64,000 nucleotides of DNA from Stappia sp. (lineage in GTDB: Bacteria > Pseudomonadota > Alphaproteobacteria > Rhizobiales > Stappiaceae). The position numbers and the translations under genes are program-made. The notes under the pieces are model-generated. The model did no database searches. It was given only the letters and a program-made list of their open reading frames with translations, and was not told where the DNA came from. The DNA lies in NCBI RefSeq assembly GCF_040110915.1, contig NZ_CP157793.1:1624939-1688938 (forward strand), read 5' to 3'. Shown in pieces: positions 31,159 to 47,850 of this stretch. How positions within the stretch are numbered: the first letter of the stretch is position 1; every line of letters begins with the position of its first letter.

Positions 31159-31218
31159 TTACTGTTTTCTTTCCGAAAAATAGTTCGTATCATGAGATCT
31201 GTTTAAGGAGGTTTTGAC

Positions 31219-31470
31219 ATGAAGGTTAAGTTTCATACCTGGCTCAAGACGAAGACGGGCTGCGGCGAGGAAGAGATCGACCTGCCCGACCACGTCCGCA
31301 CCATCTCGGATCTGACCGCCTTTCTGGCCGAACGCCACGCGGAGGCCGCACCGCTCTTCGCGATGCCGCAGGCGCTGCGCTATGTGATTGACCGGCGCTA
31401 CGTCGATACCGACCATGACATTTCCTCCTCGCCCGTGGTGGAGATCTACCCGCCGGTCACCGGCGGGTGA
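31219..31470 (+). CDS. MoaD/ThiS-like sulfur-carrier protein ending PPVTGG
   Basis: An 83-residue beta-grasp protein with the MoaD-type ending VEIYPPVTGG. A terminal Gly-Gly is adenylated by a MoeB/ThiF-type E1 and then converted to thiocarboxylate. The E1 gene lies directly opposite, with a SufE-like gene behind it, so adenylation and sulfur supply are both present. No MoaE partner is seen, which argues against a normal molybdopterin role. The start has a perfect AAGGAGGT about 7 bases upstream. The last 25 bases overlap the convergent E1 gene. Confidence 0.88.
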   Translation: MKVKFHTWLKTKTGCGEEEIDLPDHVRTISDLTAFLAERHAEAAPLFAMPQALRYVIDRRYVDTDHDISSSPVVEIYPPVTGG

Positions 31471-32279: not shown

Positions 32280-32725
32280 GGCTCCGCCCTTTCCCCGGCG
32301 AGCGCCGCGCCGTAGCCGTGCACATGCTTCAGCAGCCGATGAAAGCCGTTGGCCCGGCTCGGGGCGAGCAGATCGATCAGCCCCGCCTCGCGCAGCCGGT
32401 CCGGCGGGGCCGCGGCGATCTCGTCGGCACTGCGCCCGTCGTAGAGACCCACCGCGATGGCCAGCAGCCCGCGCATGATGCGGGCGTCGGAATCGGCCGC
32501 CACCCGCACGATCCGCGTGTCCGGGTCGTGGCGCAGATCGAGCCAGACCCGCGACTGGCATCCGTGGAACCGGGCCTCCTCGGTCTTCAAGGCGGACTCC
32601 ATGGGCGGCAGTTCCGCCGCCATTTCCAGCAACACGACCACCGGCCCGCCGCCGTCCGCCCTTGGCGCAAGCCGGTCGGAAAGACGGGCGATATAGGCGT
32701 CGATCGACATCGTCTGCGTGTCCAT
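32276..32725 (-). CDS. SufE-family sulfur acceptor
   Basis: A 149-residue SufE-like protein with the active cysteine Cys56 in FHGCQSRVWL, matching the SufE consensus. SufE takes persulfide sulfur from a cysteine desulfurase. Translational coupling to the MoeB-like E1 and proximity to the MoaD-like carrier suggest it delivers sulfur for thiocarboxylate formation rather than general iron-sulfur assembly; that is inference. The first ATG at 32725 is used; another ATG 15 bases later is equally possible. No desulfurase gene is nearby. Confidence 0.85.
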   Translation of the reverse strand: MDTQTMSIDAYIARLSDRLAPRADGGGPVVVLLEMAAELPPMESALKTEEARFHGCQSRVWLDLRHDPDTRIVRVAADSDARIMRGLLAIAVGLYDGRSADEIAAAPPDRLREAGLIDLLAPSRANGFHRLLKHVHGYGAALAGERAEP

Positions 32726-32768
32726 CCATGTCGGACCGTCGGCCCTCGCGTGGCCGGGCGATCAGGCG

Positions 32769-33896
32769 TCAGGCGGCCGCGCGCGCGCTGGCGAGAACGC
32801 CGCCGCCGAGCGGCTCGGCCACGCCCGTGGTCAGCGGGAAGCTGAGCGGCAGGCCGCGTTTGGAGCGCATCGCCAGAAAGGCGAAACACTCCGCCTCCAC
32901 CGCGTCGCCGCGCAGGCCGACGCTTTCGGCCGGCACCACCTCCGCGCCGGTGCGCTTGGCGATCTCTTGCATCATGACGGGGTTCTTGCGCCCGCCGCCA
33001 CAGACCACGATGCGGCGCGGACGGATCGGCAGCAGATCCAGCGCCTTGCCGACCGAGCCGGCGGTAAAGGCGGTCAGGAGCGCCGCCCCGTCCTCAAGAC
33101 TTGATCCGTCCGCCATGGAGGCGGAGAAGTCGAACCGGTCCAGCGACTTCGGGTAGGGCGCGGCGAGGAAGGGATGCTCCAGCAGGCGCGCCAGCCGATC
33201 CTCGTCGACCGTGCCGCTGGCGGCCAGCGTGCCGCCCTCGTCCATGTCGCCACCGGTGTGCTGGAAGATCCAGTCGTTCACCGGCGCATTGGCCGGCCCG
33301 GTGTCGAAGGCGATCATCTGGTCGCCGTCGCACCAGGTGAGGTTCGCGACGCCGCCGAGGTTCAGCACGGCGGTATCGCCGCCGGCGTTGATCTTGCGAA
33401 GCGCCGCCTTGTGATAGATCGCGGAGAGCGGCGCGCCGTGGCCGCCCGCCTCCATGTCGCGGGAGCGGAAATCGTAGACCACATCCGTGCCGACGATCTC
33501 CGCCATCATCGCACCGTCGCCGAGCTGACGGGTGTGGCCGCGCCGGCCGTTCTCCGGCGCGCGGTGCAACACGGTCTGCCCGTGGAAGCCGACGGCCGAG
33601 ATGTCGGACGCCGAATAGCCGTGCCGCGCGAGGAAGGCATTGACGGCGAGTGCCTGCGCCTCGGTCAGCGCGGCTTCCGCCTCGCGGAAGATCTCCGGCT
33701 CCGGCCCGGTGAACTGCCATTTCAACGCCGCCTCGAAGGTACGCCCGAGAAGGTCGCGGATGTCGACCGGATAGGGCGCGAGCTCCCAGGGCCCGAACGC
33801 GTCGATCGTCTCGCCGTCGGTCTTGATCATGGCGATGTCGATGTATCCGTCGAGCACGGTTCCGGTCATCAGTCCGATTGCCCAGGCAGGCTTCAT
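32769..33896 (-). CDS. anmK: Anhydro-N-acetylmuramic acid kinase
   Basis: A 375-residue ASKHA-fold kinase that cleaves and phosphorylates 1,6-anhydro-MurNAc to MurNAc-6-phosphate, the substrate of MurQ. Motifs are [54 protein letters not shown] and [10 protein letters not shown]. The TGTVLDG form differs slightly from the usual SGTSLDG of enterobacteria. It follows the radical SAM gene by 26 bases, an unusual partner, and belongs functionally with the recycling operon at 15-27 kb. Confidence 0.93.
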
Positions 33897-33922
33897 GTCG
33901 TGTCGCTCCCTTGTGCGCCGCC

Positions 33923-34903
33923 TCAGGCCGCGGCGGCGCGTTTTTCCTGAATGTGTTGCGGGAAGATGCGCCCGGCCGGCTTGCGGCAGTCCTTGCAATG
34001 GCCGACGGCGCTGCGGCCGTGATCGGCCAGGCGGCAGCGGAAGGCGAGCGCTCCGGCCAGCACCCGGTCGACACCGTCGTGCAGGAGGTTGCCGACGATG
34101 CCCGCCTTGCCGTGGCTGATCACGCAGATCGAGACATCCCCGTTCGGCGCGACGCAGAACACATGCCCCGCCCAGAAGCAGGGCAATTGCGGGACGGGCA
34201 GATGCGGCAGAACCTCCTCCGACAGCATGCGGTCGAGCGTGCCGTCGCTCTCCAGGTTCTCCACCTTGTCGATCGCCTGTTCCGCGCCGCCGGGCAGCAG
34301 CGGCTTGACCTTCTCGTACTGGTCGACCCGCTCCAGCAGCTTGAGGAAACGCGGATCGTACTCCTCGATCGGCTCGTCGAGATCGATCTGATAGACCCCG
34401 ACGCGCAGGCCCGGCCGGTGCTGCGCCGCCTCCAGCAGCCGTTCCAGCCCCAGCAGCGATTTCTCGAAATTGCCCTCGCCCCGGTTGAGGTCGTGGGAAT
34501 AGCGGTTGCCGCCGTCCAGCGAGACGAAGATCTTGTGATCGAAGTCGACCGACACGATTTCCGCCACCCGCTTGTCGGTCAGCATCGTGCCGTTGGTGTG
34601 CCATTGCAGCGGAATGGTCGGCATCACCTCGCCCACGGTCGCCAGAAGCTCCGCGAAGCGGGGGTTCATCAACGGCTCTCCGCGCCAGTTGAGATGGATC
34701 GTCTGCACGTCGACCGAGACGCTGTCGCGCAGGTCGGTCAACATGCGCCGCAGGTCCTCCGGCGTCATGTCGTCGGTGCCGTGGCTGAGCTTCGTGTAGC
34801 ACAGGCGGCAGGCCAGGTTGCACCGCGTGGTCGGATCGAGCCAGAGCCAGACGGGCGATCCGGTGAGGGCTGAACTCTCGGTGTGCTTTGCGAGGTCGGT
34901 CAT
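33923..34903 (-). CDS. Radical SAM protein with SPASM-like C-terminus
   Basis: A 326-residue radical SAM enzyme with the cluster motif Cys28-x3-Cys32-x2-Cys35 (CNLACRLC) and GEPLMNP following. The C-terminal part has [19 protein letters not shown] and HCKDCRKP, the cysteine pattern of SPASM auxiliary clusters. Such enzymes often modify peptides or tRNA-like substrates, and here the substrate is unknown. The ATG at 34903 has GGGAG 6 bases upstream. It heads the operon with anmK, the SufE-like protein and the E1, so a role in the sulfur-carrier pathway is possible. Confidence 0.88.
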
Positions 34904-35010
34904 GCAAGCTCCCTGGTCGCCGGCCGCCGGGTGTCCCCGCGCGGCTGATTTCAGTTCATCACACAAATCCGCGTCTTACAATACCTGTTAAATACCACTC
35001 GATATCCAGA

Positions 35011-36042
35011 TCAATCCAGCCGTCTCGGATAATGGATCGGCACGCACCAGTGGTTGGCCGCCACCCAGTCGGTGTTCGGCAGCTCGGCCGGGTCCTTCAC
35101 GATCCGGTGGCAGGGCAGCTCGTAGACCTTGCCGGCGCCGCGCTCGATCGGCTCGAAGACGATGTATTTGTAAAAGCCGCTCTCCATCCCCTCGGGCAGC
35201 CGCAGCCGGTGCGGATAGGCGGGGTCCAGAACGTCGCGCGCATAGGCGCGTTTCCACGCAACGATGTCGGCGAGGCGGCGGGTCTGCACCACGCCCATCG
35301 CGGCGGTGAACTCGTCGATCCGGTGGTTCATGCCCTGAACGGTGTAGCCGGAGCCCCGGCCGTAATCGCGATAGGAGCGCGCGTGGCGGGCAAGGTCCGG
35401 ATTGGCGGTCACCAGCATGCCGCCCTCGCCGGTGGAGATCGTCTTGGTCGGATAGAAGGAATAGATCCCGGCATCGCCGAAGCTCCCCGCCGCCCGCCCC
35501 TTCCAGCGCGCGCCATGGGCATGGGCGCAATCCTCGATCAGCCAGATGCCCTTGTCCCTGCAGTAGGCGGCGATCCGCTCGATGTCGAAGGCGATATGGC
35601 CGCCGACGTGCACGATCCAGGCGGCCTTGGGCCGATGGCGCTCGGCCCTCTCCACGAAGTCGGCGAACGACCCGCACAGATCCTCCCGATTGCAGTCGTA
35701 GAAGACCACCGAGGCGCCGGATTTCTGGGCCGAGCGCGGCGTCGCCAGGAAGGTGTTGGACGGCGAGAGCACCGTCTCGCCGGCCACGCCGACGAAGTCG
35801 AGCGCCGCCAGCGCGCCGCCGGCCCAATTGTTGAAGGCGACCGCCTCGAGCCCCGTCTCCGACGCCCAGGCCGCCTCGAAAGCCCGCGTGTGCTCGCCGT
35901 CGCTCCAGCGGTTGGAGCGCAGGATATCGCGCCACAGACCGAGCAGTTCCGCCTCGTCGCGGGCGTCGAAGGCGACCGAGAACGGCAGCGGCGCGGGGCG
36001 CGCGCCGGCGGGGTCACGGGGGTGTGCGGCCGGTGTGTTCAC
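35011..36042 (-). CDS. DegT/DnrJ/EryC1-family PLP aminotransferase
   Basis: A 343-residue fold-type-I enzyme with the PLP lysine in YPTKTISTGEGG, LIEDCAHAHGARWKG and NWAGGALAALDF. DegT enzymes usually aminate keto-sugars, but some act on other ketones. The GTG start overlaps the stop of the flavin oxygenase gene (GTGA), so the two are coupled. The 107-base gap after it to the radical SAM gene is AT-rich and could hold a promoter. A link to the phosphonate genes upstream is possible but unproven. Confidence 0.9.
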   Translation of the reverse strand: MNTPAAHPRDPAGARPAPLPFSVAFDARDEAELLGLWRDILRSNRWSDGEHTRAFEAAWASETGLEAVAFNNWAGGALAALDFVGVAGETVLSPSNTFLATPRSAQKSGASVVFYDCNREDLCGSFADFVERAERHRPKAAWIVHVGGHIAFDIERIAAYCRDKGIWLIEDCAHAHGARWKGRAAGSFGDAGIYSFYPTKTISTGEGGMLVTANPDLARHARSYRDYGRGSGYTVQGMNHRIDEFTAAMGVVQTRRLADIVAWKRAYARDVLDPAYPHRLRLPEGMESGFYKYIVFEPIERGAGKVYELPCHRIVKDPAELPNTDWVAANHWCVPIHYPRRLD

Positions 36043-37250
36043 AGCAGCATATCCTCCTGCGCGCGCCCGAAAAGCGCCGCGCCGTCGTTTCGGGCGTGGA
36101 GTTCATATTGATTGGCCGCGTGCTGACGCGCGGCGAGCATGTCGTTGAAGGCGCGCAACAAGGGCGATCCGCGGTAGAGCGCGGCGGCCCCCGCGGCGCG
36201 CAGAAGATCGGCGGCATGCGAAAAGCAAAGGTCCGCGACCCGTGTCGCGTTCAGTCGAAATACCCGCCGACGCGCCAGCGGCACGTCCCTGCCGTGCCGG
36301 GCCGCTCGCGCGAGGTCCTCCTGATCGGCCTCCAGGATTTGCCACTGCGCGGCGAGATCCGCCTCGATGCGCGCGCACAGATCCTGCACATGCGGATCCT
36401 CGGCGATGCGCTGCGCCATCATCGAGGTGCGCTCGCGGTTCGCCTCGAGAAAGCCGGCGAGCATGCCGCGCAATCCGCCGAGCGACGACGTCGAGATCGT
36501 ACGGAACAGGATCTGCGGCAACGGCTGCCGGTAAAGCGGGCCGGCGTGGACGCGCAAGCCGGGCGCGGTGCCGTGGAACCGGTGCGCGTGCGCCAGGAAG
36601 CGATACGCGGGCACCCGCGCTTCCGCCACGCGCACGGCATGGCTGCCCGTGCCGCGCAGGCCCGCCACGTCCCAGTCTTCCACGATCTCGATATCGCGGC
36701 GCGGCACGACGCAGGCGCCGGCGAGCGGTTCGCCATCGCCCGTCAGAAGCGCGCCGAGCATCACCCAGTCGGCATGATCGACCCCGCTGGAAAAACGCCA
36801 CTGCCCGGACAGGGACAGCGTCCCGTCCGCCTCGGCATGAAGGCGCCCGCCCGGCATGTTGCTCGACGACAGGATCGTGTCGGGGTCGGTGCCCCACACG
36901 TCGTCCTGGGCGCGGCCGTCGAACAGCGCCAGATGAAAGGCGACGGCCCCCATGTTGGCGAGCACCCAGCCGGCGGACATGTCGATCTCCGACACCGTCG
37001 CCTGGACGCGAAGCAGCGTGAGCGGCGTGTCTTCAAGACCGCCGAAGGATCGCGGCTGCAAAATGCGGAAAAGCCCCGCGCGGCGAAACGCGTCCACCGT
37101 CTCCGGGCTCAACCGGCAGGTCGCCTCCCCCTCCTCCGCCCGGGCGGAGAGGTCGGCCCGCATCGCGCGTGCGGCGGCGAGCAGCGCGTCGGCCGTCCCG
37201 TCCGACGCCGCGCCGGAAGCGGCTTGCGATATGGACACGGGCAGCGACAC
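36039..37250 (-). CDS. Acyl-CoA-dehydrogenase-fold flavin monooxygenase (group D, HsaA-like)
   Basis: A 403-residue protein with the acyl-CoA dehydrogenase fold: N-terminal helices (SPETVDAFRRAGLFRILQPR), the middle barrel (GTLSLSGQWRFSSGVDHADW) and C-terminal helical bundle. It lacks the usual catalytic base context and resembles two-component flavin monooxygenases or DszC-like enzymes that need reduced flavin. No reductase gene is adjacent. The GTG at 37250 is chosen because it follows a GGGAG site and leaves a promoter and palindromic operator upstream. The longer frame to 37316 would translate through them. Confidence 0.8.
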   Translation of the reverse strand: MSLPVSISQAASGAASDGTADALLAAARAMRADLSARAEEGEATCRLSPETVDAFRRAGLFRILQPRSFGGLEDTPLTLLRVQATVSEIDMSAGWVLANMGAVAFHLALFDGRAQDDVWGTDPDTILSSSNMPGGRLHAEADGTLSLSGQWRFSSGVDHADWVMLGALLTGDGEPLAGACVVPRRDIEIVEDWDVAGLRGTGSHAVRVAEARVPAYRFLAHAHRFHGTAPGLRVHAGPLYRQPLPQILFRTISTSSLGGLRGMLAGFLEANRERTSMMAQRIAEDPHVQDLCARIEADLAAQWQILEADQEDLARAARHGRDVPLARRRVFRLNATRVADLCFSHAADLLRAAGAAALYRGSPLLRAFNDMLAARQHAANQYELHARNDGAALFGRAQEDMLL

Positions 37251-37273
37251 GACAATCTCCCGATTGGTGGTGC

Positions 37274-37310
37274 TAGACTGGTAGTCTATTGGAGGTGGTG
37301 AAATTTGCAA
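37274..37310 (-). promoter_or_regulatory. Promoter with a palindromic operator over the -10 box
   Basis: On the minus strand TTGCAA (37310-37305) and TAGACT (37288-37283) are 16 bases apart, a plausible sigma-70 promoter for the oxygenase/aminotransferase operon. The -10 box is the left arm of the perfect palindrome TAGACT-ACC-AGTCTA (37288-37274), so a bound dimer would block transcription. Confidence 0.55.
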
Positions 37311-37347
37311 GAGCACGCTTTGTTATAGTCGCGTGACATCTTCAACC

Positions 37348-37363
37348 CCGCCCGCGCGGGCGG
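37348..37363. terminator. GC palindrome after the alcohol dehydrogenase gene
   Basis: CCGCCCGCGCGGGCGG is a perfect 16-base palindrome in the 218-base gap between the dehydrogenase stop and the oxygenase promoter. It may end the phosphonate transcript. No T-run follows. Confidence 0.35.
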
Positions 37364-37468
37364 CCCCCACGGCGCGGATCCTGCAACGCATTGCTCCCTC
37401 ACCTGCGCCCGCCCGATCTGCCCCCCTGACCTGTCGTCCGCCCGCTGGCACTCGCAACCGCCGCAGGC

Positions 37469-38605
37469 TCACGCCGCGTCGGTCGCCGCCGTCGCCGTGA
37501 AGTCCGCGACCGGAAACAGGTCCGCGAAGTTGCCGAGCCTTTCGGGATCGACCGAGCGCGCCAGGGCCGCGCCGTCGACCTGGGTTTCAAGTTCCGCGAT
37601 CCGGGCCGGCAGGCCGCAGTCCCTGATGAGGGCCGTCCAGGTCCCGGCGCGATAGGAGTCGGCGCCGCACAAGGTCCGGCAGACGTCGCGAAAGGCGTCG
37701 CGATAGGGGGCCGTCATCCGCGTGCGTCCCGCGTCGAGCGCGCGAAGATAGCGTTCGAAGAAGAGGGCCACCGCCAACCCGTGCGGCACCGCGTGAACGA
37801 GCGTCAGATGGTAGGACAAGGCGTGCGGGAGATTGGTCTTGGCGATGTTGATCGCCCGCCCCGCGCAATAGGCGGCGTTCTGGAGATCGGCGAGCCCATC
37901 GGCGGCCGGATCGCGCGCCAGTGCGCGCAGCGCCGGCAACCCGACGGTCAGCGCCTCGCGCGAGAACGCGCGGCTCTCCGCCGTCGCGGCGCGGGAAAAC
38001 TGGCTCTCGATCCCTTGCGCCACCGCATCGAGCGCGGAAATCGTCTTTTGTCTGTGCGAGGCGGAACGCAGAAGCTCTGGACACAGCAGCGCGACATCGG
38101 GCTGCAGCGACGGATGCGCGACGGACACCTTGCGCCCCTTGCGATAGCAGACCGCGAAATGCGTCGCCTCGCTGCCCGACCCGGCCGTCGTCGGCAGGCA
38201 GATCAAGTGCCGCCGGCGGGGCAAGGCGGTCTCGCCCGCATCGATGCGCGCGGCGAGCTCGGCCGGCGGCAGGCCGAGCGCCGTCAGCTTGGCGACATCC
38301 ATGACCTTGCCGCCGCCGATCGCCACCACCGGATGGTCGGGCGCGAGGTCTGGAACGGACTCCACGCCGGGAAGCGGGGCGGCCACCGCGACCACCCGCG
38401 AGCCCGGCACGGCCGAGGTCACGCCGGCGAGGATCGCCGCGACGGCGGGCGCGCGCGCGCAGGTCTCGCCCACGACGAGCGTGGCCGGCGCGCTGGCGAG
38501 CGCCGTGAGCAGCGCCCCGGTCGCCGCCGCACCGTCCTCGACCCTGAGAACCGTGTGGCTCCCGGTCGTATCGCGCGCGAGCGGAGCCGCCCTTGCGGTC
38601 GTCAT
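37469..38605 (-). CDS. Iron-containing alcohol dehydrogenase, phosphonoacetaldehyde reductase-like
   Basis: A 378-residue group III alcohol dehydrogenase with the NAD-binding VVAIGGGKVMDVAKLTALG and metal-site histidines in NLPHALSYHLTLVHAVPHGLA. In phosphonate pathways this family (FomC/PhpC) reduces phosphonoacetaldehyde to 2-hydroxyethylphosphonate. Start and PEP mutase stop overlap as TGATG, strong evidence for a joint pathway. Because no phosphonopyruvate decarboxylase gene is visible, reduction of phosphonopyruvate itself is an alternative. It is the last gene of the minus-strand phosphonate operon. Confidence 0.85.
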   Translation of the reverse strand: MTTARAAPLARDTTGSHTVLRVEDGAAATGALLTALASAPATLVVGETCARAPAVAAILAGVTSAVPGSRVVAVAAPLPGVESVPDLAPDHPVVAIGGGKVMDVAKLTALGLPPAELAARIDAGETALPRRRHLICLPTTAGSGSEATHFAVCYRKGRKVSVAHPSLQPDVALLCPELLRSASHRQKTISALDAVAQGIESQFSRAATAESRAFSREALTVGLPALRALARDPAADGLADLQNAAYCAGRAINIAKTNLPHALSYHLTLVHAVPHGLAVALFFERYLRALDAGRTRMTAPYRDAFRDVCRTLCGADSYRAGTWTALIRDCGLPARIAELETQVDGAALARSVDPERLGNFADLFPVADFTATAATDAA

Positions 38606-39906
38606 CACAGATATTCCGGAATGTACTGGAGAAGCCGCGAGGTGCTGACGATACGCTCCGCGTGCGCCTCCTCGTTGCACAGCCCGTCGTCCAGAATGGC
38701 CTGCGCCATCGCCTCGATCGGCTTCACGATGGCGCGCAGCATCTGGTTGGCGTAGATGACCGCGTCGATGCCATTGTCCTCGAAGGCGGCGAAGGGCGTG
38801 CGCCAATAGGTGGTCGGCACGGCGAAGACCGGCACGTCGATCCCGGCACGCCGGATGTTGCGGGTGAACTCGAAGACCTCGTCGGCGACGGGCGAAATGC
38901 TGTGAATGAGCAGCGCGTCGACGCCGGCCTCCACGTAGGCCTCGGCACGCTTCATCGCGTCGGGCATTCCGTGGTCGAGGATCAGGCTCTCGATCCGGGC
39001 GATCAGCATGATCTCGCCGGACCGCGCGGCACTGCGAAACGCCTTGATCTTGTCGACGAACAGCGGGATCGGCGCCTGAACCTGCGCCTTGCTGGTGCCG
39101 TAGAGCGAATTGCGCTTGGCGCCCGTCTTGTCCTCCAGGCACAGGGCGGAGACGCCGATCTTGTCGAGCGCCCGGGTCAGTTCGAAGACCTGATCCGCCC
39201 CGCCGCCGGAGTCGCCGTCGTAGATCATCGGCAGTTGCGTGCAGTCGAAGATTTCCTCGATCGTGCGAATGCGGTGGCTGCGGTCGACGATCTCGCAATC
39301 CGGCTTGCCCCGGCTCGCCGCGTCGGTGAGGCTGGAATGCCAGAAGGCGTCGAACGCCGCATTTCCGGTGCTGGAGCGTGCTTCCGAGACGATCCGCGCC
39401 GACAGGCCGCTGTGCGCCTCGACGACGCGCAGAGTGGTCTTGGCGGACAGGAGCCGCTTCAGCCGCCCCTGACGGGCACGCGCGGTGATCCCCTCTTCCT
39501 CGTTCGCCTGATGCAGCAAGGTGGAGGAAATGCCCTTGGTGTAGGGAACCTCGACGAGTTCGCCGCCCCATTCGGCGAGAATGTCGATCACCTCCTGGCG
39601 CGCGAACATCTGCTCGCCGTATTTCCAGTCGTCGCCGTGGACCACGCAATCGGGCCGATAGCGGCGCAGGTTCTCCGCGTAGCTGAGGCTTTCCTGCGGC
39701 ACCACGGACGCGACGCCCACGATGTTCTGAACGACGCGCGCGCGTTCCTCGAAGGGCAGGAAGGGCAGCCGCTTGTAGCCGACGACGGCGCCGTCGGTGA
39801 GCACTCCGACGGTCACCTTGCCGAGCCGCGACGCGGTGTTGATGATGTTGATATGCCCGGCGTGGAGCATGTCCCCGACCATGCCGACATAAACCGTTTT
39901 CGTCAT
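38605..39906 (-). CDS. pepM: Cytidylyltransferase-phosphoenolpyruvate mutase fusion (Fom1-like)
   Basis: A 433-residue two-domain enzyme. Residues 1-135 are a nucleotidyltransferase with [14 protein letters not shown] (HAGH at 15-18), like glycerol-3-phosphate cytidylyltransferase. Residues about 140-430 are PEP mutase, with the diagnostic [14 protein letters not shown] near residue 260 and preceding [11 protein letters not shown] mutase makes the C-P bond of phosphonopyruvate. In Fom1 of fosfomycin producers the same domain order is found and the N-terminal domain attaches CMP to 2-hydroxyethylphosphonate. Neighbouring B12 radical SAM and CDP-alcohol transferase genes fit a CMP-phosphonate intermediate. 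Confidence 0.93.
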
Positions 39907-39966
39907 TCGACCGTCCTCCCTCGACCGCCCTTCCCCGACGTCCGACCCCGCGGCGCGCGCAGGGCG

Positions 39967-41583
39967 TCAGTACTGCCCCTGCGACCACTCGCGCCGCGCG
40001 TTGCGCGTCTTTCCGGCGTTGAAGGACGTGTTGAACTGCGCCGCCAGCTCGGCGATCTCCTCGCCCCGCCACAGGCCCGGCACGTTCAACAATCCTTGCT
40101 TGTAGGACATGCGGTAGAGCGGCGTGTCCTTGGCGATGAAGCCCTGTCGCATGGCCTCCGACAGGAGCACCGAGCCGACGATGGGGGTCGCGGCGAAGAA
40201 GGAGGCGCTGTCGAACCCGGCGTCGGCCGCGAAGTCGTAGGTCATGCGCATCTCGTCGACGGTCTCGCCCGGCTTTCCGAACATCGGCGGCATGCCGATG
40301 ATGAAGAAGCCGTGCACCGACATGCCGAGGCTGCGCGCGTAGGCGATGAGATGGCGCGTGCGGTCGAGATCGAGCGGCTTGCGGATCAGGTCGTCGAGCA
40401 CGCGCTGCACGCCGCTCTCGATGGCGAAGGTGATCTGGTAGCAGCCCGACGCCGCCATCAGCTCCAGCAGTTCCTCGTCCATCCGCCATAGCGCCGTGCC
40501 CTGCGGCGTGCACCAGGGCATGTTCAGCTCCGTCAGATACTTGAACAGGTGCTTTGCATGCGCCTTGTCGTTGGTGATGTTGTCGTCCTGGATGTGGAAC
40601 TCGTTGATCCCGTATCCGTCGCGCAGGGCGATCAGCTCCTCGACGACATTCTCGGGGCTGCGCCGGCGCAGCTTGCCGCCCCAGAAGTTGGTCGTGGTGC
40701 AGAAGGTGCATTTCGCCGTGCAGCCGCGGCTGGTGTAGATCTGGCCGACCCGGTCGCCGATCGTGTAGGGCGACTGATAGGCGCCGATCTCGAAGTATTT
40801 TTCCATGTTGTAGAGGTGCCAGGCGGGGAACGGGATGTGGTCGATCTCCGCCCAGAAGCCGTTGGCGTTGCGTTCCTTCTTGCGCACCAGCGCCATCATG
40901 TCGTTGGCGATCAGCGCGCCGTCTTTCTGCGCGATGAGCGATTCCACGTCCTCGATCTCGCCATGGCCGTTGAGCGCCTCGAGGTAGTGCAGGAACGTCG
41001 CCTCGGACTCGCTCAGGAACACCGCGTCGACGTCGAACTCCTCGATGTAATTGTGCGGGAAGTAGCGCGCATGCGCGCCGCCGGTGGCGACATAGGCATC
41101 CGGCGCCGCCATGCGGATCGCCCGGAACACCTCCGCGACCGAATCCGACTGGTTGGAGAAGATGCTCGACACGCCGACGATGTCCGGCCCGAAGGCCGCG
41201 ATCCGCTTCGCGATCTCGGCCCGGTTCAGGCCGTAGGTGAGGAAATTCTCGTCGTCCTTGATCGGCGTGGTGTCGTAATAGCCCTCGACCAGACAGTCGA
41301 GGATCTCCACCTCGTAGCCGCTTTCCAGCAGCACGGCCGCGATGTAGCCGAGGCCGAGCGGATAGGTGCAGCGCGGCAGGTCCCCCTTGTAGAGGGTCGA
41401 CGGCGGCGAGATCAGCATGACGCGCTGAACCTTGCGCGTCTCCGGCCGGCTCGCCGCCGTGAGCGTGTTCACATAGCGGACCGGGCTCTGCTTGTCGGGA
41501 TCGATGAAGAGGTTCTTGAGAGAGTCGACCCTGGCCGTCGTCTTGACCGAGGATGTGGACGGTGCGTTTCCGGTATCGCTCAT
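39967..41583 (-). CDS. B12-binding radical SAM enzyme (Fom3/PhpK-like methyltransferase candidate)
   Basis: A 538-residue protein. An N-terminal cobalamin-binding region (about 50-220) includes LISPPSTLYKGDLPRCTYPL and VGVSSIFSNQ. The radical SAM core has CTAKCTFC near residues 286-293. In phosphonate pathways Fom3 and PhpK of this class methylate carbon or phosphorus, and Fom3 acts on a CMP-phosphonate. It is 60 bases before the Fom1-like gene and overlaps the first CDP-alcohol transferase stop as TGATG. Methyl transfer is inference; other B12 radical SAM reactions are possible. Confidence 0.88.
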   Translation of the reverse strand: MSDTGNAPSTSSVKTTARVDSLKNLFIDPDKQSPVRYVNTLTAASRPETRKVQRVMLISPPSTLYKGDLPRCTYPLGLGYIAAVLLESGYEVEILDCLVEGYYDTTPIKDDENFLTYGLNRAEIAKRIAAFGPDIVGVSSIFSNQSDSVAEVFRAIRMAAPDAYVATGGAHARYFPHNYIEEFDVDAVFLSESEATFLHYLEALNGHGEIEDVESLIAQKDGALIANDMMALVRKKERNANGFWAEIDHIPFPAWHLYNMEKYFEIGAYQSPYTIGDRVGQIYTSRGCTAKCTFCTTTNFWGGKLRRRSPENVVEELIALRDGYGINEFHIQDDNITNDKAHAKHLFKYLTELNMPWCTPQGTALWRMDEELLELMAASGCYQITFAIESGVQRVLDDLIRKPLDLDRTRHLIAYARSLGMSVHGFFIIGMPPMFGKPGETVDEMRMTYDFAADAGFDSASFFAATPIVGSVLLSEAMRQGFIAKDTPLYRMSYKQGLLNVPGLWRGEEIAELAAQFNTSFNAGKTRNARREWSQGQY

Positions 41584-42182
41584 CACATTCTCCAGATAAC
41601 GAGCCCCAGACCGACGAGCGGCATGACGCCCGCCGTCACGGCGATCGATGGTTTCCTGATGCGGATCGACGACACCTGAAGCAGGCCGAGCCCGACCGCC
41701 GCGCCGATCAGAAGCGCGAGGCCGGTCTCGACTAGCGAGGCGCCGATGACCGCGATGACGAAAAGGTAGGCGGCATAGGTGGTCGGCAGGCCGGCGTAGA
41801 GCCGCGATCCGGCGGTCGCCTCGAGCTCGAAGCGCACGAGCCGCAGCGCGCCGCACAGGGCATAGAAGAGCGCCGCCGCGACCGCGGGCGCCGCGAAACC
41901 GCCGAGCCAGGCGAGAAGCACGGCCGGCGCGACGGAAAAGCCGATCAGATCGGCCACCATGTCCAGCGACCCGCCGAAGGCCCGCGCCTGCCTGTCGTCG
42001 GGATTGCGCGCCCGCGCCACATGGCCGTCCATGTGGTCGACCGCCCCGCAGAGCACGATCAGGGCACTGGCCAGCGCGATGTGTCCCGAGGCCGCCGCCA
42101 GAATGGCGCCGACGCCGCCTGCGACGTTTGAAAGCGTGATGACGTTTGCGGCATCCATGTACCGCGATAGCCAGATTGCCAT
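41583..42182 (-). CDS. CDP-alcohol phosphatidyltransferase-family protein
   Basis: A 199-residue integral membrane protein with the CDP-alcohol motif DHMDGHVAR...GGSLDMVAD, all acidic residues kept. The spacer between AR and G is 12 residues instead of the usual 8. The family joins a CMP-activated phospho-compound to an alcohol such as diacylglycerol. In this operon it could transfer a phosphonate from its CMP ester to a lipid. The ATG at 42182 has GAGGGGGG about 5 bases upstream. It is the first minus-strand gene of the cluster, facing the dioxygenase gene. Confidence 0.9.
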   Translation of the reverse strand: MAIWLSRYMDAANVITLSNVAGGVGAILAAASGHIALASALIVLCGAVDHMDGHVARARNPDDRQARAFGGSLDMVADLIGFSVAPAVLLAWLGGFAAPAVAAALFYALCGALRLVRFELEATAGSRLYAGLPTTYAAYLFVIAVIGASLVETGLALLIGAAVGLGLLQVSSIRIRKPSIAVTAGVMPLVGLGLVIWRM

Positions 42183-42284
42183 TCAGCCCCCCTCAATCGC
42201 GGGCATGAAGCCTGGCCGACCTGTCGCACAGTCGACATGATTACGCTTATGACGGGTAATTCACTTTACAACACCCATTGCGTT

Positions 42285-42304
42285 TATGTCAGTCATATGA
42301 CATA
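42285..42304. promoter_or_regulatory. Palindromic operator between the two phosphonate operons
   Basis: TATGTCA (42285-42291) and TGACATA (42298-42304) form an inverted repeat with a 6-base spacer, and GTCATATGAC (42292-42301) is itself a perfect palindrome within it. It lies in the AT-rich 175-base divergent gap 42183-42357 and probably controls both directions. Confidence 0.55.
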
Positions 42305-42357
42305 GCGATACGATCTTTGCTAGTATTATTTCAATATGCACGCGAGGGAGGTGTCTG

Positions 42358-43113
42358 ATGGTCGCTCCGAAGACCGACTGCGTGGAAACCTGCAAGACCG
42401 TCGGCCACGCGCTTGAACGCCAGTTTCTCGACGCGAATCAGCAGGCGGCATTTCGCGACGAGGTGGAGCGGCTGATCGCACGACGGACGACCGACGGCGA
42501 GCCGATGTATTTCTTCGAGGAAACGCCCGACGGCGCGCGCCGCCTCATCCGCGCGGAACGGATCTGGGAGGCCTTGCCGACACTCTCGCAAGGCCCTGTC
42601 GGAAAAGCGCTTTTCGACATCGCGCGGTCCTATTTCGGCACCGAGGCGCGGATCTTCAAGGACAAGGTCAACGTCCGCCACGCGGGCAGCAAGGGCTATG
42701 CGCCGCACCAGGATTCGGCCGCCGGATGGGATGCCTTCGCGCAACGCTTCCTGTCGATCGGCCTGTTCCTCAATCCCTCGACGCCGGAGCGCGGCGGCTT
42801 CGAGGTGGTCGACAAGGCCCATCGGCTTGGGCGCCTCGACAACGATAAGGGCAAGATGTCGATGGAGCTGTTCAACAGCTTCCGGCCCTACGGCATCGAG
42901 GCCGATGCCGGCGACATCATCCTGCTCGACAGCGAGGCGCCGCATCGCACCTACGACAACACGTCGAGCCACGACAGTCTTCACCTTCTCGTCACCTTCG
43001 CGGCCGATCCGAAGATCGATCTGCGCACGGCCTACTACGAGAAGAAGGCGTCGGAATTTCAGGGCGACCGGGGGAAGAATGAGTTCAAGTTTCGTGTTTT
43101 CGAATTTGAATGA
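42358..43113 (+). CDS. Fe(II)/2-oxoglutarate dioxygenase, phytanoyl-CoA dioxygenase family
   Basis: A 251-residue PhyH-fold oxygenase with the iron-binding HQD in GYAPHQDSAAGW and the distal His in EAPHRTYDNTS. Relatives in phosphonate pathways (PhnY, FzmG) hydroxylate the carbon next to phosphorus, so oxidation of a phosphonate intermediate is likely. The ATG at 42358 has GGGAGG about 6 bases upstream. Its 3' end overlaps the exporter gene by 35 bases. It opens the plus-strand half of the cluster. Confidence 0.88.
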   Translation: MVAPKTDCVETCKTVGHALERQFLDANQQAAFRDEVERLIARRTTDGEPMYFFEETPDGARRLIRAERIWEALPTLSQGPVGKALFDIARSYFGTEARIFKDKVNVRHAGSKGYAPHQDSAAGWDAFAQRFLSIGLFLNPSTPERGGFEVVDKAHRLGRLDNDKGKMSMELFNSFRPYGIEADAGDIILLDSEAPHRTYDNTSSHDSLHLLVTFAADPKIDLRTAYYEKKASEFQGDRGKNEFKFRVFEFE

Positions 43114-43711
43114 TCTGGCGCTCCTCGCGGCGCTCCATCTGTCGTCGATGCTGACCCCGGGGCTGAACACGAGCGCGGTGATCACCAACACGGTGGCCGG
43201 CGGCGTCGCGGCGGGCTATCGCACCGCCGGCGCGCTGGCGGTCGGCGCCTTCGCGCTGTCGAGCCTCAGCGTCCTCGCGTTTTCCTCGGTCCTGATGGAG
43301 CCGGCCACGCGCCGGGTCATGGCGGTCGTGTCCATCGCGATCCTGTGCTTCTTCTGCTGGAAGATCGCCCGCAAGCTGCTCAGACCGACCGCCCCGGGCA
43401 TTGGAACCGAAACCATCGGCCCGCCGCAACTCTTCGTGCTCTATATCGCCAATCCGCAATCCATCATCTTCTTTTCCGTGCTCATCTTTTCCACCGGATT
43501 GCAGTTCAACGGCGCAGTTGCCCTGAGCGTCCTTGCCATCCTCACCCTCAACACCTTCCTCTACTACGGGCTGATCGCGCGGCTGTGCGGGGCGCTGTCG
43601 AGCGTCCTGATGAGCCCGCGCATGCAGACGCTCACCAATGCGGTGCTCTTCGCCTTCCTCGCCCTGACGCTCGTCAAGGTCGCGGGCGATCTCCTGACCG
43701 GGACGATCTGA
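43079..43711 (+). CDS. LysE/RhtB-family exporter-like membrane protein
   Basis: A 210-residue membrane protein with LALLAALHLSSMLTPGLNTS at the N-terminus, replacing the usual PGP motif region of LysE, and five to six membrane helices. LysE proteins export amino acids and similar zwitterions. Here it may move a phosphonate or aminophosphonate. The ATG at 43079 lies inside the end of the dioxygenase gene, in a different frame, so the two are translationally linked. Confidence 0.82.
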   Translation: MSSSFVFSNLNDLALLAALHLSSMLTPGLNTSAVITNTVAGGVAAGYRTAGALAVGAFALSSLSVLAFSSVLMEPATRRVMAVVSIAILCFFCWKIARKLLRPTAPGIGTETIGPPQLFVLYIANPQSIIFFSVLIFSTGLQFNGAVALSVLAILTLNTFLYYGLIARLCGALSSVLMSPRMQTLTNAVLFAFLALTLVKVAGDLLTGTI

Positions 43712-43794
43712 GGCGGAGCCCGTCCCGCGGCCGACGGCCACCGACGCACCACATACGACAGCCAACAGGCGACAGGTGAAACGGGGAGCAGTTC

Positions 43795-44457
43795 ATGGAC
43801 GGATATATCTACCGGCCGATGCGCCCGCTCTCCCGCGCGCTCGCGCGGCGTCTCGTCCCCCTGCCCGTCGCCCCGGACGTGTTCACGGCCTGCTGGTTCG
43901 CAAGCTACCTCGGCGCTGCCTTCGCCTTCGCGGAAGGCACGCCGGCGTCGGCGCGGCTCGGCGCCGGGCTGATCCTGCTCGCCGGTTTCTTCGATTGTCT
44001 CGACGGCGATCTCGCACGGGCCCGCGAACGCCCGAGCGTCTCGGGCGCCTTTCTGGAGCAGGTGCTTCACTGGATCAGCCAGGCGAGCCTGATCGTCGGC
44101 ATCGTCCAGGGCTATGGCGCGCAGGTCTTTCCCGAGGTGAGCCCGGTCCTGCTGACGGCCATCCCCCTCGTCGCCGACCAGATGTTTCATCAGGTCTTCT
44201 TCATCATCAACGGCGCCATGCATCCGGAACGCCACTACGGCATGCTGCACCGCATGACGGGCACGCTCCTGCCCCTCATGCCGATCAATTCCAACGTCTT
44301 CTGGATATCGGGCCTCCTCGGCCTTCCCCACTATGGCCTGATCGCCTACACGCTGTTCGCCGCCGCAACCTTCATATGCGTGTCGTCTATTTACTACCTA
44401 TGGGAGAAGGGCTATGATCGCCGCGTTGAAGATGAGCATTCTCCCAGGGAGGAGTGA
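43795..44457 (+). CDS. Second CDP-alcohol phosphatidyltransferase-like protein with altered motif
   Basis: A 220-residue membrane protein with DCLDGDLARARERPSVSGAF followed by LEQVLHW. The DG, AR and G positions and the 8-residue spacer fit the family, but the last two acidic residues (usually D-x3-D) are Glu and His. This could change metal binding or make it inactive, for example as a partner of the first copy. ATG at 43795 with a GGGGAG site upstream. It precedes the small 73-residue protein gene by one base. Confidence 0.8.
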   Translation: MDGYIYRPMRPLSRALARRLVPLPVAPDVFTACWFASYLGAAFAFAEGTPASARLGAGLILLAGFFDCLDGDLARARERPSVSGAFLEQVLHWISQASLIVGIVQGYGAQVFPEVSPVLLTAIPLVADQMFHQVFFIINGAMHPERHYGMLHRMTGTLLPLMPINSNVFWISGLLGLPHYGLIAYTLFAAATFICVSSIYYLWEKGYDRRVEDEHSPREE

Positions 44458-44458
44458 C

Positions 44459-44680
44459 ATGGCAGAGTTCAACGAATTTCAGGATCGGGTCATTGCGTCG
44501 ATGAGCGGAGTAATGCTCAAGATTTCCGAAGGGCCGATGGATGCGCTGAAGCAGGCGAGTTCCGGCAAGAGCCTGGACCCGAAGGTCCTTGCGAGCCTCA
44601 GCGACAATCTCCGCAAGCTCGCCAGCCAGGCCTCGCTCGCCGCCTCTCTCGCCGCGGTGATGGCCAAGGCCAAGCGCTGA
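44459..44680 (+). CDS. Small uncharacterised helical protein
   Basis: A 73-residue protein, all helical by appearance, with no cysteines and two amphipathic stretches (FQDRVIASMSGVMLKISEGP and LRKLASQASLAASLAAVMAK). The ATG at 44459 has a strong AGGGAGGAG site 5 bases upstream and follows the previous stop by one base, so it is expressed with the CDP-alcohol transferase. I do not recognise a family. An accessory role at the membrane is possible. Confidence 0.7.
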   Translation: MAEFNEFQDRVIASMSGVMLKISEGPMDALKQASSGKSLDPKVLASLSDNLRKLASQASLAASLAAVMAKAKR

Positions 44681-44708
44681 CACGAGACCGCGATCGAAAC
44701 GCAGGGTC

Positions 44709-44735
44709 ATCGGTGCCGGTCCGGCCGGCGCCGAT
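44709..44735 (+). terminator. Hairpin after the phosphonate operon
   Basis: ATCGGTGCCGG and CCGGCGCCGAT pair around a 5-base loop, with one G-T pair, 29 bases past the last stop. No T-run is seen. The remaining bases to 45078 contain no credible gene, only the repeat array at 44805-44873. Confidence 0.5.
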
Positions 44736-44804
44736 GCACCGCTTGGCGGCTCATTCCCGCGTACACCCGGCGTGCGAGGGATCCGTCACGTCTGCCTGAT
44801 CCGT

Positions 44805-44873
44805 GTGCCGGACGTGGGTGCCGGACGTAGAGCACCGAACGTAAAGTGCCGGACGTAAAGTGCCGGACGTAGG
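44805..44873. repeat. Array of five 13-15-bp direct repeats
   Basis: Five consecutive copies of a GTGCCGGACGTAAA-like unit, the third diverged to GCACCGAACGTAAA. It lies in the 398-base gap between the convergent phosphonate operon and the P-type ATPase gene. The copies are too short and uninterrupted to be a CRISPR array. Confidence 0.8.
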
Positions 44874-45078
44874 AATGCGGTGTCACAAGCCGCTTTGCAT
44901 GTCAGGCCGCGTGGCAATGGCGGATGCGGCCGAGACTGACGCGGCGTTCAGCGTGCCCGCCCGCCCGCGCGAAATTGCGCTCCTCACGCGGACCCCGAAG
45001 CCTCGCCGTCAGGTCCGCGCGACCGACGGCCCCGAAACGCTGGTCCGAGTCCCTCTTGCGGCCGCCGCCGCGCAAGGC

Positions 45079-47850
45079 TCAGGCCCCCTGCCCCGCCGCA
45101 GACCGACGCCGCAGGACGCGCTTTTCGATCTCCAGGATCAGCAGCAGCAGCGGTCCGACCGCCACCACCGTCAGACCTTGGGCAAGGCTCAGCGGACGGG
45201 TGTCGAAGAACGTCTCCATGAAGGGCGCATAGGTGAAGGCGAACTGCAGGCCGGTGACCGCCGTGATCGCGATCAGGACGGGGCGCGTGCCGAGCACGCC
45301 CTTCAGCGTCAGCGATGTCGTGTTCAGGAAGCGCACCGAGAAGAGATAGAAGATCTCCATCACCACCAGCGTGTTGACGGCGATGGTGCGGGCTTCCGCC
45401 AGGCTCGCGCCTTGCGCCTGCGCAAGCGTGAACATCCCGAAGATGCCCGCGCAGAAGAGAAGCGAGACGAAGGCCACCCGCCACAGCACGAAGCGCGACA
45501 GGATCGGCTCGTCCGGACGGCGCGGCGGGCGGCGCATGATGTCGGCCTCCGCGCCCTCGAAGGCGAGCGCCATGGCGAGCACCACGGAACTCACCATGTT
45601 GACCCAGAGGATCTGCACCGGCGTGATCGGCAGCGTCAGTCCGAGCAGCAGGGCCAGAATGAGCGCCAGCGCCTCGCCGCCGTTGACCGGCAGCAGGAAG
45701 ACGATGGCCTTCTTGAGGTTGTCGTAGACCGTGCGCCCCGCCCGCACCGCCTCGGCGATGGTCGCGAAATTGTCGTCCGCCAGAACGATCTCGGCGGCCT
45801 CCTTGGCGGCCTCGGTGCCGCTGCGCCCCATCGCGACGCCGATATCGGCGCGCTTGAGCGCCGGCGCGTCGTTTACGCCGTCGCCGGTCATGGCAACCGC
45901 CGCCCCGCCGGCCTGAAGCGCCTCGACCAGCCGCAGCTTGTGCTCCGGGCTGGTGCGGGCGAAGACGTCGATGCGTTGCGCGGCGCGTTGCAGGGACGGC
46001 GCATCCAGCGTGTCGATCTCCGCGCCGGTCAGGACCTCCTCGGCATTCTCCAGGCCAAGCGCGCGGGCAATGGCGGATGCGGTGCCCGCATGATCGCCGG
46101 TGATCATCTTCACGCGGATGCCGGCGGCACGGCAGTCGGCCACCGCCGCCACCGCCTCGTCCCGCGGCGGGTCGATCAGACCGACAAGGCCCAGAAGCGT
46201 CAGACCGCCGTCGACATCGGCGAAGGTCAGCGTCTGCCTGGACGCATCGGCCGCCTTGGTGGCGATGGCCAGCACGCGATGGCCCTCGGCCGCGATCTCC
46301 TGCACCCGCGCGGTCCAGTAGTCCGTGTCGAGAGGTTGCGTGCCGTTCTCCTCGCCGTGCTGAAAGGCGCACATGGCGAGGATGCGTTCCGGCGCGCCCT
46401 TGACGTGAATGGCGGCACGCCCCGCGTGATCGTGGTGCAGGGTCGCCATGAAGCGATGCTGCGCGTCGAAGGGAATGGCGTCGGTCTGCGGATTGGCCTT
46501 CCTCAGCGCGTCGGGCTCCATCCCGGCCTTCCAGCCGAAGGACACCAGCGCGCCCTCCATCGGATCGCCGGTGACGGTCCACTGTCCGTCGCTCTCGGCG
46601 ATCTCCGCGTCGTTGCACAGGATCGCGCCGCGCGCCAGATCGCCCAGCAAGGGATAGTCCGCCACATCGGCCTCGCGGCCCTCAAGCGAGAAGCCGCCAT
46701 GCGGCGCGTAGCCGGTGCCGGTCACCCGGAAGATGCGCCGCGCGGTGGCGACGGAGGCGACCGTCATCTCGTTCTTGGTCAGCGTGCCGGTCTTGTCCGA
46801 GCAGATCACGGAGACCGAGCCGAGCGCCTCGATGGCCGGCAGGCGGCGCACGATGGCGCGCCGCGCCGCCATGCCCTGCACGCCGATGGCGAGCGTCACG
46901 GTGAGGATCGCCGGCAGCCCTTCCGGGATCGCGGCCACCGACAGGCCGACGACGGCCATGAAGATCTCGGCGAAGGAGAGACCGCTGGCGAAATAGCCGA
47001 AGCCGAGGATCGCCGCCGCGATCACCAGGATCGCGAAGGTGATCGTGCGGGCGAAGCCTTCCATCTGCCTGAGCAGCGGCGTGGTGGTCGTCTCCACCGT
47101 GTCGAGCATGCCGCTGATGCGGCCGATCTCGGTCGCAGCACCGGTGGCGACCACGACGCCACGGCCGGTGCCGGCCGCGACGAGCGCGCCGCTGAAGGCC
47201 ATGCCGCGCCGGTCGCCGAGCGGCGCCTCCGCCGCGACCGGGTCGCTCGATTTCTCCACCGGCACGGATTCGCCCGTCAGGACCGCTTCCTGGATGCGCA
47301 GCCCATGGGCCGTCATCACCCGCAGATCCGCGGGCACCCGGTCGCCGGGTTCGAGCAGCACCACGTCGCCCGGCACCAGGTCCTCCGCCGGCACCAGCGT
47401 CCTTCGTCCGTCCCGCACAACCCGGGCATCGGGGGCCAGCATGTCCTTGATCGCCGCAAGCGCCTGTTCGGCCCGCCCCTCCTGCACGAAGCCGATGACC
47501 GCGTTGACCAGCACGACGGCGAGAATCACCCCGGTGTCCACCAGATGCCCGAGCACCGCCGTCACGAACGCGGCCGCCAGCAGGACATAGATCAGGAGGT
47601 TGTGAAACTGACGCAGAAACCGGGCGAGCGGCCCGGCGCGCGGCGGCTCGGGCAGACGGTTCGGCCCCGTGGCGCGCAATCGCGTGCCTGCCTCGACCGC
47701 CGAAAGACCGTCGCGCGTCGCGGACAGGCGATCCAGCACATCCTCGACGGATCGGTCGTGCCAGCGCGCCGCTTCGCTCTGCGGAGGCGTCTCGCCCTGT
47801 TGCGGTTTCGAAGGGGCCGGCGTCGGCCGGTCTGCATGAGACGATTTCAT
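45079..47850 (-). CDS. P-type cation-transporting ATPase (P2, CtpF/PMR1-like)
   Basis: A 923-residue membrane pump with the N-terminal cation ATPase domain, phosphatase loop TGES, phosphorylation site CSDKTGTLTKNE, nucleotide-binding KGAPERIL and hinge MTGDGVNDAPALK. Helix M4 has the calcium-type AAIPEGLPA, and M5 keeps Asn and Glu in LPVNGGEALAL. In M6 the sequence is WVNMVSSVV, so the aspartate of calcium pumps is replaced by Ser, as in mycobacterial CtpF-like pumps. The transported ion is therefore uncertain. It stands alone, with its start facing the end of the XRE regulator gene. Confidence 0.9.
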   Translation of the reverse strand: MKSSHADRPTPAPSKPQQGETPPQSEAARWHDRSVEDVLDRLSATRDGLSAVEAGTRLRATGPNRLPEPPRAGPLARFLRQFHNLLIYVLLAAAFVTAVLGHLVDTGVILAVVLVNAVIGFVQEGRAEQALAAIKDMLAPDARVVRDGRRTLVPAEDLVPGDVVLLEPGDRVPADLRVMTAHGLRIQEAVLTGESVPVEKSSDPVAAEAPLGDRRGMAFSGALVAAGTGRGVVVATGAATEIGRISGMLDTVETTTTPLLRQMEGFARTITFAILVIAAAILGFGYFASGLSFAEIFMAVVGLSVAAIPEGLPAILTVTLAIGVQGMAARRAIVRRLPAIEALGSVSVICSDKTGTLTKNEMTVASVATARRIFRVTGTGYAPHGGFSLEGREADVADYPLLGDLARGAILCNDAEIAESDGQWTVTGDPMEGALVSFGWKAGMEPDALRKANPQTDAIPFDAQHRFMATLHHDHAGRAAIHVKGAPERILAMCAFQHGEENGTQPLDTDYWTARVQEIAAEGHRVLAIATKAADASRQTLTFADVDGGLTLLGLVGLIDPPRDEAVAAVADCRAAGIRVKMITGDHAGTASAIARALGLENAEEVLTGAEIDTLDAPSLQRAAQRIDVFARTSPEHKLRLVEALQAGGAAVAMTGDGVNDAPALKRADIGVAMGRSGTEAAKEAAEIVLADDNFATIAEAVRAGRTVYDNLKKAIVFLLPVNGGEALALILALLLGLTLPITPVQILWVNMVSSVVLAMALAFEGAEADIMRRPPRRPDEPILSRFVLWRVAFVSLLFCAGIFGMFTLAQAQGASLAEARTIAVNTLVVMEIFYLFSVRFLNTTSLTLKGVLGTRPVLIAITAVTGLQFAFTYAPFMETFFDTRPLSLAQGLTVVAVGPLLLLILEIEKRVLRRRSAAGQGA

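Follow-up and report, generated by a model that had tools for sequence, protein, structure and literature searches.

The island and its Fom-type early enzymes

The stretch of Stappia sp. DNA analysed here (the window: 64,000 nucleotides of contig NZ_CP157793.1, positions 1,624,939-1,688,938 of the forward strand, assembly GCF_040110915.1) carries a compact island of eight genes at 37469-44680, between native blocks of chromosome. All window positions count from its first letter. The island encodes a Fom1-like fusion of a cytidylyltransferase (CyT) domain with phosphoenolpyruvate phosphomutase (PepM), a FomC-like iron alcohol dehydrogenase (FeADH) and a Fom3-like B12 radical SAM enzyme, together with a PhyH-type oxygenase, a LysE-family exporter, two proteins of the CDP-alcohol phosphotransferase family (CDPOH_1 and CDPOH_2) and a small open reading frame (ORF) (Table 1). 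Pfam backs every assignment except that of the small, 88-residue ORF. An initial annotation of the stretch had already named genes across this interval; all of them are there, and its coordinates proved nearly exact.

The genes form two divergent sets, both starting from a 175-bp gap. The leftward set comprises CDPOH_1, Fom3, CyT-PepM and FeADH, whose neighbours overlap by 1-4 bases or lie 60 bases apart, FeADH overlapping the pepM stop codon. The rightward set comprises PhyH, LysE (which overlaps the end of PhyH), CDPOH_2 and the small ORF. Three promoter-like sites were found in the 8-kb region, against 0.8 expected, and two of these lie within the gap; they are defined by consensus match only.

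Table 1. Features of the Stappia island, in window coordinates
Feature	Position	Strand	Basis
FeADH, FomC-like, predicted phosphonoacetaldehyde reductase	37469-38608	-	Fe-ADH 73.1 bits
CyT-PepM fusion, Fom1-like	38605-39906	-	PEP_mutase 163.4 bits; CTP_transf_like 40.1 bits
Fom3, B12 radical SAM, predicted CMP-hydroxyethylphosphonate C-methyltransferase	39967-41583	-	Identity and tree
CDPOH_1, CDP-OH_P_transf, phosphatidylserine-synthase-like	41583-42182	-	48.2 bits; four motif Asp
Divergent intergenic region, 175 bp	42183-42357		Promoter-like site on each strand
PhyH-type Fe(II)/2-oxoglutarate oxygenase, candidate epoxidase	42358-43113	+	PhyH 45.5 bits
LysE-family exporter (predicted)	about 43079-43711	+	PF01810 45.8 bits; start and ribosome-binding site
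CDPOH_2, rare CDP-alcohol-transferase-fold protein	43795-44457	+	CDP-OH_P_transf 31 bits; D3 to Glu, D4 to His
Small protein, up to 88 aa	44414-44680	+	No Pfam family

Over their aligned parts, the three early enzymes are 59% (Fom3), 47% (Fom1) and 40% (FomC, residues 76-365) identical to their Streptomyces wedmorensis counterparts. In the PDB, the CyT domain has a match at E 9e-52 to 5x3d (named phosphoenolpyruvate phosphomutase), a solved structure that we take to be the Fom1 domain; the printed 5x3d sequence agrees with the S. wedmorensis protein. The EDKxxxxxNS and HxGH (here HAGH) motifs of the fusion are intact. The best NCBIfam match of FeADH, TIGR03405, falls far below its cut-off (118.9 vs 423.7 bits). 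For the radical SAM protein the best NCBIfam name was Sden_1168 P-methyltransferase (307 bits, cut-off 575), an assignment that we rejected in favour of Fom3 on the grounds of identity and phylogeny.

A Fom3 profile scan of genome contigs returned 15 loci, including two Streptomyces strains with the whole fom set. A Fom3 tree was built from 56 rows (database hits P0002-P0044, 43 minus two duplicates; 12 window and locus rows; three outgroup rows), with a tool warning of long branches among the outer rows. The window protein lies inside a 49-row clade with authentic Streptomyces Fom3 (support 96/89), where it groups with those of Telmatospirillum and Neorhizobium in a nine-row set (99/96). The Burkholderia protein falls in the same proteobacterial half on a branch that is not strong (94/85), and archaeal Fom3-like proteins fall outside the clade. 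Phylogeny of the mutase domain, which the initial annotation had proposed as a check on its Fom1 comparison, split CyT-PepM fusions from PepM-NTP fusions at 100/99 in a 15-row tree. Here too the window, Telmatospirillum and Neorhizobium sequences group together (97/94), and the Burkholderia PepM joins the Fom1 and archaeal rows (90/86). The window PepM branch is long (1.03), yet its motifs are kept. Both the likening of the three enzymes to Fom1, FomC and Fom3 and the idea of a cytidine monophosphate (CMP)-linked phosphonate donor thus gain support from identities, trees and motifs. Since equivalents of Fom1, FomC and Fom3 are present, the pathway should pass through a CMP-hydroxypropylphosphonate intermediate, and on sequence grounds the predicted route to CMP-2-hydroxypropylphosphonate is well supported.

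No match to the decarboxylase Fom2/Ppd was found within the window, a gap that the initial annotation did not mention. A Ppd gene is encoded elsewhere in the same genome (C1:3288863-3289948, 403.8 bits vs a cut-off of 312.5), adjoining a PepM-NTP fusion and a PhyH-like gene in a second phosphonate locus (L035, 10846-14625). In 12 of the 13 other genus members PepM matched within a longer open frame, which is what this second locus would give. Among the relatives with similar clusters, Ppd lies upstream on the same contig together with PepM-NTP in Telmatospirillum, on another replicon in Burkholderia and inside the cluster itself in Neorhizobium.

Late genes and the MurA copies of related clusters

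Related clusters were identified in three other proteobacteria. In Telmatospirillum (L020), FeADH and PhyH run leftward, and CDPOH_1, Fom3 and PepM run rightward, followed by a gene for MurA (13169-14518). In Neorhizobium (L021) one strand carries PhyH, FeADH, MurA, CDPOH_2 and the small ORF, and the opposite strand Fom3, PepM and Ppd. The Burkholderia cluster (L023) contains PhyH, Fom3, PepM, FeADH, a 102-residue ORF, a CDP-alcohol protein, a glycosyltransferase, an aminotransferase and a radical SAM-SPASM protein. PhyH, FeADH, Fom3, PepM and a CDP-alcohol-family gene are thus common to all four proteobacterial clusters, window included. The Burkholderia radical SAM-SPASM protein (17303-18160, minus strand) is 38% identical to the product of window gene 33923-34966, which itself lies outside the island. 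More distant loci were also seen. Nanoarchaeal and woesearchaeal loci (L026, L027 and L031) hold Fom1-, Fom2-, FomC- and Fom3-like genes with an extra stand-alone cytidylyltransferase, and an Omnitrophota locus (L025) holds Fom3, a stand-alone CyT domain (54% identical to that of the window), a PepM-NTP fusion, a sugar-nucleotide dehydratase and a sulfotransferase gene.

The finishing genes of fosfomycin synthesis were sought in the same proteobacteria. Neither HppE (Fom4) nor FomD of S. wedmorensis matched anything at E 0.001 in any of the four genomes (own, Telmatospirillum, Neorhizobium and Burkholderia), and the S. viridochromogenes control was positive for both; these were single-sequence searches with S. 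wedmorensis queries only, which may have missed very distant homologues, for instance HppE of the Pseudomonas type, unused as a query. What the clusters carry in their place is the PhyH protein and the CDP-alcohol family. PhyH has the HxD...H iron site and the Fe/2-oxoglutarate (2OG) oxygenase fold. The sole NCBIfam model that it matched was methylphosphonate hydroxylase PhnY* (79.5 bits vs a cut-off of 500), and the solved structures closest to its model in a fold search are hydroxylases. No sequence relative of PhyH was found in the PDB at E 0.001, nor any phosphonate-specific structure among the 50 fold matches listed for its model.

The canonical motif of CDP-alcohol phosphotransferases follows the pattern DxxDGxxAR...GxxxDxxxD. 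CDPOH_1 has all four motif Asp residues in both the window and Telmatospirillum, and matches the PDB entries 7pow (E 3e-11) and 7b1k (E 4e-11). CDPOH_2 fails the canonical motif, two of the four Asp residues being replaced: Glu and His occupy the third and fourth positions in the window, in Neorhizobium and in all six database hits, one of which is 95% identical to the window protein. The corresponding residues are Asp and Asn in the Burkholderia counterpart and Asp and Ser in archaeal L027. As judged from its sequence, CDPOH_2 is a member of a rare subfamily of CDP-alcohol transferases in which the motif is altered. Its best fold match is the CDP-alcohol phosphotransferase AF2299, at a sequence identity of about 20%. 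The small ORF is paired with CDPOH_2 in Neorhizobium too (44% over 63 residues, E 2e-13), and the 102-residue ORF of Burkholderia, at the same place, is alignable but weaker.

Two of the four clusters include MurA, the target of fosfomycin; that of the window does not. The Telmatospirillum copy lies on the same strand as pepM, 284 bases after it, and has Asp in place of the fosfomycin-reactive Cys, whereas the other MurA of that genome has Cys. Exchange of Cys for Asp at this position gives a fosfomycin-insensitive MurA, according to the available text of PMC4790336 and PMC5652432. The best 120 of the 7827 homologues above threshold are all Asp-type, and the cluster copy is therefore a paralogue that is Asp-type by nature; its recruitment replaces the recent point mutation that we had considered. 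When 40 relatives of the Telmatospirillum metagenome-assembled genome were compared with the Asp-type MurA, 36 matched at 45-54% identity, four gave no match and none exceeded 54%; the 19 of these 36 matches that were read are all Cys-type. The divergent Neorhizobium copy (6366-7652) is set between FeADH and CDPOH_2 on their strand, 138 bases after FeADH and with the CDPOH_2 match 54 bases further on. Among 39 relatives, two have a match to it at 64% (not near Fom3), four at 36-37% and 33 none.

Two types of MurA occur in the Stappia genus itself: 13 of its 14 genomes have a divergent type with an AKGCALG-like loop, and eight have a canonical one; the genome that lacks the divergent type is 89% complete and has neither. 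The divergent MurA of the window's own genome (C1:3246270-3247541) shares 67% identity with the copy in the Neorhizobium cluster, a resemblance that might explain why the window cluster would need no extra copy. We also asked whether the canonical MurA gene at 16311-17603 might serve the window as a resistance copy, and rejected this, as the gene occurs in eight of the 14 genus members, seven of which have no Fom3 match.

Weighing a fosfomycin-like product

The reading that we prefer, with a probability of roughly 0.48, is that the island makes a fosfomycin-like, MurA-directed phosphonate, with PhyH and the CDP-alcohol-family proteins in place of HppE and FomD. It is probably a third version of the fosfomycin pathway, this one proteobacterial, and not a system for a membrane lipid alone. 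The PepM domain would convert phosphoenolpyruvate to phosphonopyruvate, which the chromosomal Ppd of the second phosphonate locus may decarboxylate; FeADH would then reduce the product to 2-hydroxyethylphosphonate, the CyT domain would activate it with CMP and Fom3 would methylate it at carbon to give CMP-(S)-2-hydroxypropylphosphonate. PhyH would oxidise this intermediate, probably closing the ring of an epoxide-type MurA inhibitor; CDPOH_1, and CDPOH_2 with the small protein, may remove the product from CMP or transfer it to an alcohol acceptor, and LysE would export it. We infer the reactions of these particular enzymes, and above all the steps beyond CMP-hydroxypropylphosphonate, the formation of an epoxide and the action on MurA. 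The argument for a fosfomycin-like product is that related clusters in two other bacteria carry an extra copy of the fosfomycin target, and since these copies are of two different types, it can be argued that the product acts on MurA.

Several observations weigh against this. As one member of a large natural family, the Asp-type MurA was perhaps recruited for another reason, and the Neorhizobium copy keeps its Cys, in an altered loop, so that its insensitivity is putative. The two MurA hits of Burkholderia are both on replicons other than that of the cluster, and MurA is missing from the window cluster, the closest one being the canonical Cys-type gene (plus strand) 20 kb away. A search for FomA and FomB, confined to the window and the three related loci, gave no match to either. 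The archaeal loci L026 and L027 combine similar early genes with CDP-alcohol-type sequences, and archaea are not known to have a MurA-dependent wall. CDP-alcohol-type sequences also lie within about 3 kb of the separate PepM-NTP loci of Telmatospirillum (L115, about 9942, plus strand) and Burkholderia (L116, about 15183, minus strand).

These last points favour surface tailoring, in which PhyH would hydroxylate CMP-hydroxypropylphosphonate, and CDPOH_1 and CDPOH_2 would use it as donor to modify a lipid or glycan. Because the archaeal loci pair early genes with CDP-alcohol-type genes, and because MurA is linked to neither the window cluster nor that of Burkholderia, this reading stays a strong rival, possible if somewhat unlikely. 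CDPOH_1, with its complete motif and resemblance to phosphatidylserine synthase, and the AF2299 fold of CDPOH_2 agree with it, as do the prediction that most pepM clusters tailor surfaces (PMC6697681) and the suggestion of a phosphonate head group for phosphonolipids in Burkholderia (PMC12723261), both as given in the available text of these papers. However, surface tailoring leaves the MurA paralogues of two related clusters without a role, CDPOH_2 lacks the third and fourth motif Asp, a LysE exporter suits a small soluble product, and the Fom3-like proteins of archaea do not belong to the Fom3 clade. The initial annotation had proposed that a CMP-linked phosphonate could be passed on to a lipid alcohol or a polymer, with a phosphonolipid as candidate end-product. 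Transfer from CMP to an acceptor is plausible, because Fom3 is found with a CDP-alcohol-family gene in each of the four clusters and in two archaeal loci. The phosphonolipid did not find support, MurA being present in two of the three relatives' clusters and CDPOH_2 being without two of its four motif Asp; a lipid product is possible and ranks second.

Were PhyH simply a hydroxylase, as its PhnY* match and its closest solved structures would allow, hydroxypropylphosphonate might become a diol or similar soluble, non-epoxide phosphonate that is conjugated and exported; we consider this unlikely, and the Asp-type MurA next to the Telmatospirillum cluster would go unexplained. Improbable, too, is a bolder form of the preferred MurA-directed product, in which the 2OG oxygenase would close the epoxide on CMP and the His-type CDP-alcohol transferase, with its small partner, would pass it to a membrane alcohol, yielding a masked, lipid-held MurA inhibitor for later activation that producers may tolerate through divergent or Asp-type MurA. 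An ordinary Streptomyces-type fosfomycin pathway, with HppE and FomD too diverged to detect, would fit the Fom-type early steps, and single-sequence searches can miss remote homologues; the absence of matches in four whole genomes beside a positive control, and the PhyH and CDP-alcohol genes that all four clusters share instead, make it very improbable.

If the preferred reading of a MurA-directed phosphonate is true, the island represents a third solution to fosfomycin-type synthesis, with another epoxidase candidate, nucleotide-to-alcohol transfer and protection by a copy of the target, and fosfomycin-type chemistry reaches further bacteria. It would then be possible to test directly what CDP-alcohol transferases do in phosphonate pathways.

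Chromosomal setting and comparison with known systems

Fom3 is present in one of the 14 genomes of the genus, and the fusion protein was matched in 16 of 87 family genomes at E 1e-40, its own included, the other 15 through the PepM part alone. To the left, collinearity with island-free relatives (window 15087-37142 in G083 and 15101-37320 in G085, about 80% identity) stops at 37142 and 37320, respectively; to the right it restarts at 45120-45339 in G081, G084 and G075, so that the two borders are defined by different genomes. No genome with an empty site was seen among the relatives compared. The genome G083 has its counterpart of the left block near 4.20 Mb and that of part of the right block near 1.58 Mb; the island therefore sits at a junction. 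Its GC content is 66.0% (37321-45078) or 64.5% (38605-44680), compared with 68.8% and 68.2% in the flanks. A search for a plasmid home gave no match at E 1e-60.

The minus-strand genes at 28900-37316 were considered as part of a larger cluster and rejected. This block (HsaA-like, DegT, radical SAM-SPASM, AnmK, SufE, ThiF, CoA-transferase and TIM barrel genes, with MoaD) is collinear at about 80% in the two island-free genus members, and its sulfur-carrier, AnmK and radical SAM-SPASM genes are therefore ancestral neighbours outside the system. Within it, a ThiS/MoaD-like sulfur carrier gene (31219-31470, plus strand) converges on and overlaps the ThiF gene (31446-32279, minus strand), both proteins ending in PPVTGG; the pair adjoins SufE, AnmK, DegT, radical SAM-SPASM and CoA-transferase genes.

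Two fosfomycin routes, of Streptomyces and Pseudomonas, are described in the available text of PMC8158854. In the published sequence of steps, Fom1, Fom2 and FomC convert phosphoenolpyruvate to CMP-hydroxyethylphosphonate, Fom3 gives CMP-hydroxypropylphosphonate, FomD releases hydroxypropylphosphonate and Fom4 forms fosfomycin; the producer resistance reported in the corresponding text of PMC4790336 consists of kinases. The open-licence literature, outside which most subscription-journal papers lie, yielded in the text available no description of clusters like those found here, and no paper joining Fom3 with CDP-alcohol, CDP-alcohol phosphatidyltransferase with phosphonate biosynthesis, or both fosfomycin and phosphonate with phytanoyl-CoA dioxygenase. 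The Stappia island resembles the Streptomyces fosfomycin clusters (S. wedmorensis NRRL 3426, L028; S. viridochromogenes NRRL 3413, L022) in its CyT-PepM fusion, its FomC-like reductase and a Fom3 of the same clade. It differs from them in having no match to Fom2/Ppd, Fom4/HppE, FomD, FomA or FomB in the window, and holds PhyH, two CDP-alcohol-family proteins and LysE where the Streptomyces cluster has other genes.

The phosphonyl tailoring (Pnt) pathways, as presented in the available text of PMC6697681, also activate a phosphonate with CMP through a domain fused to PepM. However, they use 2-aminoethylphosphonate and a MobA-like domain, whereas the island has a Fom1-type CyT domain and a predicted C-methylation; the MobA-like (PepM-NTP) type of fusion is that of the host's other pepM locus. 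CDPOH_2 differs from AF2299 in that Glu and His stand in place of the last two of the four motif Asp residues. The closest parallel to the proposed role of PhyH may be FfnD, a 2OG-dependent fungal enzyme that closes an epoxide-type ring in fosfonochlorin biosynthesis (available text of PMC10764440): likened by function and not by sequence, both would be 2OG enzymes forming a three-membered ring in a phosphonate pathway.

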